Shown here piece after piece: positions 5,812-6,380 of a stretch of 64,000 nucleotides of DNA. Under the pieces are notes generated by a model. It had not been told where the DNA came from. It made no database searches and was given only the letters and a program-made list of their open reading frames with translations. The position numbers and the translations under genes are program-made. The number at the start of each line of letters is the position of its first letter. The stretch's first letter is position 1. The stretch is from a bacterium endosymbiont of Escarpia laminata (GTDB taxonomy: Bacteria; Pseudomonadota; Gammaproteobacteria; Chromatiales; Chromatiaceae): positions 1 to 64,000 of the forward strand of contig QGON01000070.1 in the NCBI GenBank assembly GCA_003660235.1, in the 5' to 3' direction.

Positions 5812-6380
5812 ATGGCATCGACTCCCGAAGAACTGACCGTCAACTACACCGAAGACGGCATCGACATCGTCAAGGAACTGGACCAAGTGAGTCTTCGACC
5901 TCGTGATAGATTTTGGGACATCCCAGTCCCCAAAATCGACTCGGCCTTCGACAACCTGTTTGTGCCCCGGCCGTCCCGGTCACTGGCACTACGCGACAAC
6001 CTCGCAAGCTCGTTGCCGCTCCGTTGCCAGCTCCCGATGACTGGACGCCGCGCTCGGATGCCTACTTTGCTTCCCCTCTGGCGCAAGGCACGCCGGGTAA
6101 GCAGTGCGGCCTCGCGGCTACCGGGGACTACCAGCCTTCGCTTCGCTCTCCATGGCTGGCAGCGAAGGTGATACTCACCAAAGGCGCCTGGACCACCATC
6201 ATCTTCCGTTTCCAGGAGTGGAACCGGAGCAAAGAGGAGTATGGCCAGGAAAAATACACCATCCGCCGCTTTCAGAAGCGCAATGGCGAGTATCAGGCGA
6301 AATCCAAGTTCAACATCTCCAGCAAAGATCAGGCGAAGGCGATGATTAATGCCCTGCAGGGGTGGATCGGAGACGACTGA
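5812..6380 (+). pseudogene. Small conserved-type protein gene (95 aa when reconstructed) split by a ~281 bp insertion
   Basis: 5' part MASTPEELTVNYTEDGIDIVKELDQ (5812-5886) and 3' part VILTKGAWTTIIFRFQEWNRSKEEYGQEKYTIRRFQKRNGEYQAKSKFNISSKDQAKAMINALQGWIGDD (6168-6380) join in frame if 281 bp are removed. Confidence 0.65.
5891..6171. mobile_element. Candidate structured non-coding insertion element flanked by GTGA direct repeats
   Basis: GTGA at 5887-5890 and 6168-6171; internal hairpin 5909-5937 (GATTTTGGGAC/GTCCCCAAAATC), pseudoknot-capable stems CCAGCC(6131-6136)/GGCTGG(6154-6159) and CCTTCGCT(6135-6142)/AGCGAAGG(6161-6168). Confidence 0.5.

Follow-up and report, generated by a model that had tools for sequence, protein, structure and literature searches.

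What lies within the small conserved gene at positions 5812 to 6380 of the window, the 64,000-nucleotide stretch of an Escarpia laminata endosymbiont genome analysed here, and how could it have arrived there? An earlier reading of this DNA from the letters alone (the sequence-only reading) had proposed that a 281-bp insertion splits a conserved gene of 95 amino acids. This is borne out, in that deletion of 281 bp restores the frame. The boundaries proposed at that time, 5887-6167, are shifted by our alignment of 47 copies with their flanks, which places the element 3 bp further left, at 5884-6164.

The interrupted gene and its insertion

The features of the locus are the following.

5812..5883, + strand: 5' part of the interrupted 95-aa gene (MASTPEELTVNYTEDGIDIVKELD)
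5884..6164, + strand: mobile element, 281 bp, CAAGTGAGTC...GGCTGGCAGCG, from the alignment of 47 copies with flanks
5884..5887, + strand: left terminal tetranucleotide CAAG; the bottom (putatively active) strand reads C-T-T-G before the cut
5909..5937, + strand: left-end hairpin GATTTTGGGAC..GTCCCCAAAATC (helix 7), whose sequence varies while pairing is kept
5966..5970, + strand: 5' arm of the long-range helix closing the central domain (CCCCG)
6122..6126, + strand: 3' arm of the same long-range helix (CGGGG)
6127..6163, - strand: right-end hairpin (helix 1), a 10-bp bottom-strand helix of 6127-6136 with 6154-6163
6165..6168, + strand: target tetranucleotide NNNG, here AAGG, in host DNA; the G at 6168 is invariant among copies
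6165..6380, + strand: 3' part of the interrupted 95-aa gene (KVILTKGAW...WIGDD, then stop), from empty sites in relatives

Given at greater length from its start, the element at window 5884-6164 reads CAAGTGAGTCTTCGACC...GGCTGGCAGCG in the aligned copies and flanks. The restored protein is ...KELDKVILTKG rather than the ...KELDQVILTKG first suggested: the empty site of this gene in three relatives is GAACTGGATAAGGTGATACTC, which translates as ...KELDKVILTKGAW... The GTGA seen at both junctions is a chance match, the left one lying inside the element (CAAGTGAG) and the right one in host DNA, and it is not a flanking repeat in other copies; there is no target duplication, and the repeat is a coincidence particular to this locus. 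Similarly, the pseudoknot stem AGCGAAGG/CCTTCGCT drawn at the 3' end relies on host bases 6165-6168, and since these differ from site to site, the stem does not belong to the element. The hairpin at 5909-5937 is present as described, and no convincing ORF is seen in the 281 bp.

A sequence search of the element's own genome (G000; 4.25 Mb, 71 contigs) for the further copies that the sequence-only reading had called for returned 47 by pattern-search count, with differing flanks. These are spread throughout the genome; 46 are identical over 281 bp and the other has a single substitution (identity at least 99.6%). We joined the flanks of 12 copies and searched three close relatives; each site (12/12) is empty in at least one of them, the matches being continuous over ~200 bp and mostly of 92-98% identity. 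At the three loci where junctions were read in relatives, nothing is duplicated and nothing is lost, and insertion adds exactly 281 bp. The interrupted genes include lpxC (L057, G000:C43, near 165000) and a menD-like gene (L053, G000:C33, near 130900), both intact in relatives. Searching G000 itself with joined flanks recovered only the two 100-bp halves per site, lpxC and the menD-like gene included, and no intact second allele of the 12 interrupted sites was seen there among the 40 of 163 candidates scored, with paralogues outside the scope.

The insertion is a copy of a gene-less mobile element of ~280 bp whose amplification was recent and massive and which is active or recently active; an ordinary rearrangement is excluded as its origin. 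The suspicion of a short, structured, non-autonomous mobile element is upheld by the 47 copies, the empty sites in relatives and a fold conserved family-wide, whereas an isolated rearrangement, one of the cases named as refuting it, is contradicted by near-identical copies and conserved structure alike. A conventional DDE-type miniature inverted-repeat element would also be short, high-copy and represented by identical copies; this reading is already contradicted by the missing target duplication (12/12 empty-site comparisons and the 3 sequenced junctions), terminal inverted repeats are absent and a strand bias is present, leaving it a practically negligible probability.

Inside the left-end hairpin of older G000 copies sits an IS110-like element (L108, C70; L109, C39) or a group II intron (L247, C3), which suggests that this hairpin is a preferred target of such elements. 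Some old or rare copies lack the left part. We considered 5'-truncated copies as products of target-primed reverse transcription and dropped the idea; a later deletion explains the clearest recent case, L162, better, and the flanks of this best-looking truncated copy do not make one continuous gene.

Target site and replication strand

Alignment of the G000 copies shows no information in the 25 bases to the left of the element, a flank that is thus unconstrained. On the right, the base at +4 is G at 46/46 sites, with A at +1 in 25 and at +5 in 27 of the 46. The same G occupies +4 in the Lamellibrachia anaximandri symbiont (70/70 copies), in another MAG (15/15), in others (23/24) and in the distant genome G061 (37/38), whose copies never have G at +5. 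Insertion is clean and takes place directly on the 5' side of NNNG; the +1 position favours A, and +5 tends not to be G. The left terminal tetranucleotide is NNNG as well in nearly all members, taking the forms CAAG, CGGG, CCGG, CCAG, CTAG and TAAG by family with G in fourth place throughout; the exception, CAAA in G038, is apparently decayed. Because this tetranucleotide also ends in G, both cut sites follow the same rule, and on the bottom strand both element ends read C-N-N-N before the cut. One target position of four is strict; the fixed 4-5 nt target that IS200/IS605 elements have 5' of their left end and keep in the flank is not seen here.

The copies are also unevenly placed with respect to replication, the direction of which we took from GC skew, an indirect measure, and not from mapped origins. 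The top strand lies on the negative-skew side for 38/47 copies in G000 (38:9, p=2.5e-5) and for 33/39 in G061 (33:6, p=1.4e-5), as it does for 40/59 (40:19) and 11/13 in two further genomes; in a mixed group of other species the figure is 13/21 and the bias is not significant. On contig C11 of G000, six minus-orientation copies sit at positive skew and two plus-orientation copies at negative skew. G is usually enriched on the leading strand, whose polarity the lagging-strand template shares. A bottom strand moving as single-stranded DNA by way of the lagging-strand template would be expected on the G-rich strand, and it is observed there. As read from skew, insertion occurs preferentially on one replication strand, one defined strand lying on the lagging-strand template. 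Orientation relative to the interrupted genes is approximately balanced, so transcription does not explain the strand bias.

A fold conserved across the family

Twenty-two family members have in common a seven-helix fold consisting of the 10-bp right-end hairpin, the left-end hairpin and a central domain closed by the long-range CCCCG/CGGGG helix, so that a subterminal hairpin is present at each end. Within the 22-member alignment, 94.4% of 869 cells are paired and 24 pairs are changed on both sides. Cells with changes on both sides number 133 versus 45 in shuffles, and the covariation score is 0.422 versus 0.162, with none of 500 shuffles coming near the former. Sliding the partners by 1-3 columns lowers pairing to 37-46%. 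The 35 G061 copies left out when the structure was derived served as a held-out test, and these are 94.4% paired, compared with 35-52% when slid.

The two strands are not equivalent in this respect. Folding against shuffles gives z -3.0 for the bottom strand and z -0.83 for the top, and G-U cells number 145 on the bottom strand versus 41 on the top; because the bottom strand folds better and holds more G-U pairs, it is probably the functional one. The mRNA of both lpxC and the window gene carries the top strand, with the weaker fold.

This asymmetry bears on the proposal that the insertion is a self-excising RNA, namely a self-splicing intron removed from mRNA such that the interrupted genes stay functional. 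Since lpxC is normally essential, a copy within it would be accommodated by splicing, as would the failure to see an intact allele for 12 interrupted sites. Against this, genes are interrupted about as often in one orientation of the element as in the other, the better-conserved fold is on the strand antisense to the mRNA in lpxC and the window gene, and there is no Rfam intron match. We consider splicing highly improbable.

Candidate enzymes, mechanism and distribution

The sequence-only reading left the class of the insertion unclear. That caution holds in part, as no mobilising enzyme was found, while its nature as a mobile element can be stated more firmly. In the sequence examined, no transposase of any kind carries the element ends. 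A search for Y1 proteins (PF01797) found none in G023, a genome with many copies; G000 and most relatives do have Y1 genes, none seen with element ends. RVT_1 had no match at all in G023, and group II-like reverse transcriptases are present in G000, G003, G004 and G005. Neither IscB (PF14239) nor TnpB (PF07282) was found in G000, G004, G005 or G023. No Y2 (IS91) transposase was found in G000, and the IS91 matches in G023 (L342, L349) were rejected as mobilisers, being transposase genes interrupted by the element. RAYT was not found in G023; elsewhere few RAYT loci are close to a copy, and no cognate RAYT flanked by the repeat was seen. We judge adjacency in G038 and G004 coincidental, a tRNA gene intervening in the former and dense copies making proximity or interruption expected in the latter. 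None of these candidates (RAYT, reverse transcriptase, IS91, IscB, TnpB, Y1) tracks the element's occurrence. The Rfam check proposed earlier gave no match to any model, introns included, at the gathering threshold and at E<5; 13 loci with family members also gave nothing, whereas the HEARO model (RF02033) did find the IscB control loci of G010. A search of G000, and of the surroundings of end-only matches in relatives, for a longer and autonomous version with the same ends turned up only copies of fixed length, copies that are degraded, and copies into which IS110 or a group II intron has inserted.

Four further observations concern the same genomes. At G000:C22:161993 (L234) a reverse transcriptase is fused to an apparent Cas1. 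Short contigs of the same assembly (C40-C64; e.g. L253, L258, L261) bear reverse-transcriptase ORFs of 600-1300 aa that resemble animal non-LTR retrotransposons and are probably tubeworm host contamination. The relative G010 (L292-L321) has an unusually heavy load of RNA-guided nucleases, with 37 IscB (PF14239) and 24 TnpB matches. A separate 30-bp REP-like hairpin repeat (GCCGGTTCCGCTACGCTTGAACCGGC), found in the right flank of L022 and at dozens of places in G000, G001, G002 and G005, reaches high copy number within the same genus.

Based on exact insertion, end hairpins, four-base cut sites, one apparently active strand and the lagging-strand bias, we propose an IS200/IS605-like mechanism: with slightly better than even confidence, we take the element to be a non-autonomous single-strand transposon moved in trans by a probably HUH-type enzyme. 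The element would move as single-stranded DNA in the IS200/IS605 manner, the bottom strand being active. Cleavage of this strand would fall behind C-N-N-N where target and right end meet (5'-(T)CNNN/CGCTG..., the slash marking the cut) and behind C-T-T-G at the other end (...CACTTG/), and the cut strand would enter the lagging-strand template at a CNNN/ site of a replication fork. Because the element encodes no enzyme, an HUH-type (Y1-like) transposase acting in trans would be the most likely agent.

Elements of the IS200/IS605 group have 4-nt cleavage sites and subterminal hairpins and use the lagging-strand template (PMC6006769, PMC8266576). Our element resembles them and their gene-less derivatives (e.g. 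PATEs of haloarchaea) in its clean insertion without target duplication, its hairpins near both ends with a 4-nt cleavage site on each side, its one probable active strand with a lagging-strand-template preference, and the movement of gene-less copies in trans, which for this element is proposed. It differs from them in its one strict target base, the lack of a linked Y1 gene, the failure to find TnpB in its hosts and the retention of ~200 internal nt in a conserved fold. Although it appears to work like IS200/IS605, we do not file it as a member, because it lacks the fixed 4-5 base target and no linked Y1 gene was found. REP-associated HUH enzymes (RAYT) cut at relaxed dinucleotides, CT or CA (PMC8266576), and ISPpu9 inserts into REPs (PMC8450116). 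Like REP/REPIN sequences (RAYT = TnpA-REP), the element is a high-copy hairpin repeat of gammaproteobacteria with relaxed cleavage sites and no duplication, and IS110 elements and introns insert into its hairpins; unlike these 20-60 nt hairpins, it is ~280 nt long with one long-range fold, has no GTAG-hairpin unit in REP orientation, is often inside genes and occurs in G023, where no RAYT was found.

Several points weigh against the single-strand transposon. No transposase in the sequence examined bears the element ends, and copy-rich G023 yielded no Y1 protein (PF01797). In known Y1 elements a guide reads 2-5 bases of the target, compared with one strict base here. Known non-autonomous relatives conserve mainly their ends, whereas ~200 nt of internal structure is kept in this family, pointing to a role for an RNA or for the folded strand as a whole. 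The strand bias, moreover, is not significant in the mixed group (13/21), and skew gives replication direction only indirectly. Non-autonomous DNA elements do not usually have an internal fold of this kind, which leaves an RNA-based mechanism a minor share of our confidence.

One such mechanism is a retroelement whose bottom-strand transcript is the mobile species, joining single-stranded DNA of the lagging-strand template in the way of group II introns or being copied there by a host reverse transcriptase in trans, with the conserved fold as the RNA recognised by that enzyme or as a ribozyme. The conserved internal bottom-strand structure with its many G-U pairs, the absence of target duplication and the group II-like reverse transcriptases of G000, G003, G004 and G005 agree with such a route, which also predicts the same lagging-strand bias. 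Ectopic retrotransposition of group II introns similarly combines structured RNA, no target duplication and a lagging-strand preference, features that the element has or appears to have; the element differs in its ~280 nt, its occurrence in both gene orientations, and the lack of an Rfam intron match and of an exon-pairing target. G023, however, has zero RVT_1 matches, and the target lacks the base-pairing consensus that group II introns need. Retrotransposition commonly leaves truncated copies, yet 47/47 recent copies are full length, the best recent truncated copy (L162) being best explained by a later deletion. We judge this retroelement unlikely. Also doubtful is an RNA-dependent new class in which a conserved ~280-nt bottom-strand RNA would be the essential component, serving as template, as guide or as ribozyme when the element inserts into single-stranded DNA at the fork, with a protein partner outside IscB, TnpB, RAYT, group II reverse transcriptase and IS91.

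The fold could alternatively be an omega-like guide RNA, with flanking host DNA as the guide and the conserved flank base as the TAM of an RNA-guided, copy-retaining nuclease (IscB/HEARO, TnpB). The layout fits, with one free flank, a short motif opposite, structured RNA between and the strand as in the TnpB type. HEARO, the IscB omega-RNA (RF02033), is likewise a stand-alone structured element; its size is comparable, its flank has a short motif, and it causes no duplication. The present element differs in having no Rfam match, no shared sequence, the opposite conserved strand and no IscB found in its hosts. Neither IscB nor TnpB was found in G000, G004, G005 or G023, the Rfam HEARO model matches the G010 IscB loci yet no family member, and those loci have no significant similarity to the element family. 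We therefore regard a guide-RNA element as improbable.

Relatives of the element are found in symbionts of tubeworms, in purple sulphur bacteria and in further Gammaproteobacteria, the named matches being endosymbionts of the tubeworms Lamellibrachia barhami and L. anaximandri, Thiocapsa, Thiorhodococcus, Thiobaca, Thiohalocapsa, Sedimenticola and uncultured Chromatiales. Of 291 sampled gammaproteobacterial genomes, 23 have the right-end hairpin core. A distant version reaches about 349 copies, roughly 3% of the genome, in G061 (L483-L502), a genome that belongs to another family and is complete as one contig of 3.45 Mb. The plasmid and phage collections searched gave no match, and the family was found neither in Rfam nor in the literature searched; it is apparently widespread and undescribed.

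Here, then, is a gene-less element whose copy number per genome runs from 47 to about 349, whose target has one strict base and whose seven-helix fold is kept across bacterial families. It breaks genes, lpxC among them, in deep-sea tubeworm symbionts and points to an enzyme with very relaxed target choice. Its copies provide a natural, high-copy record of apparent single-strand insertion at replication forks.
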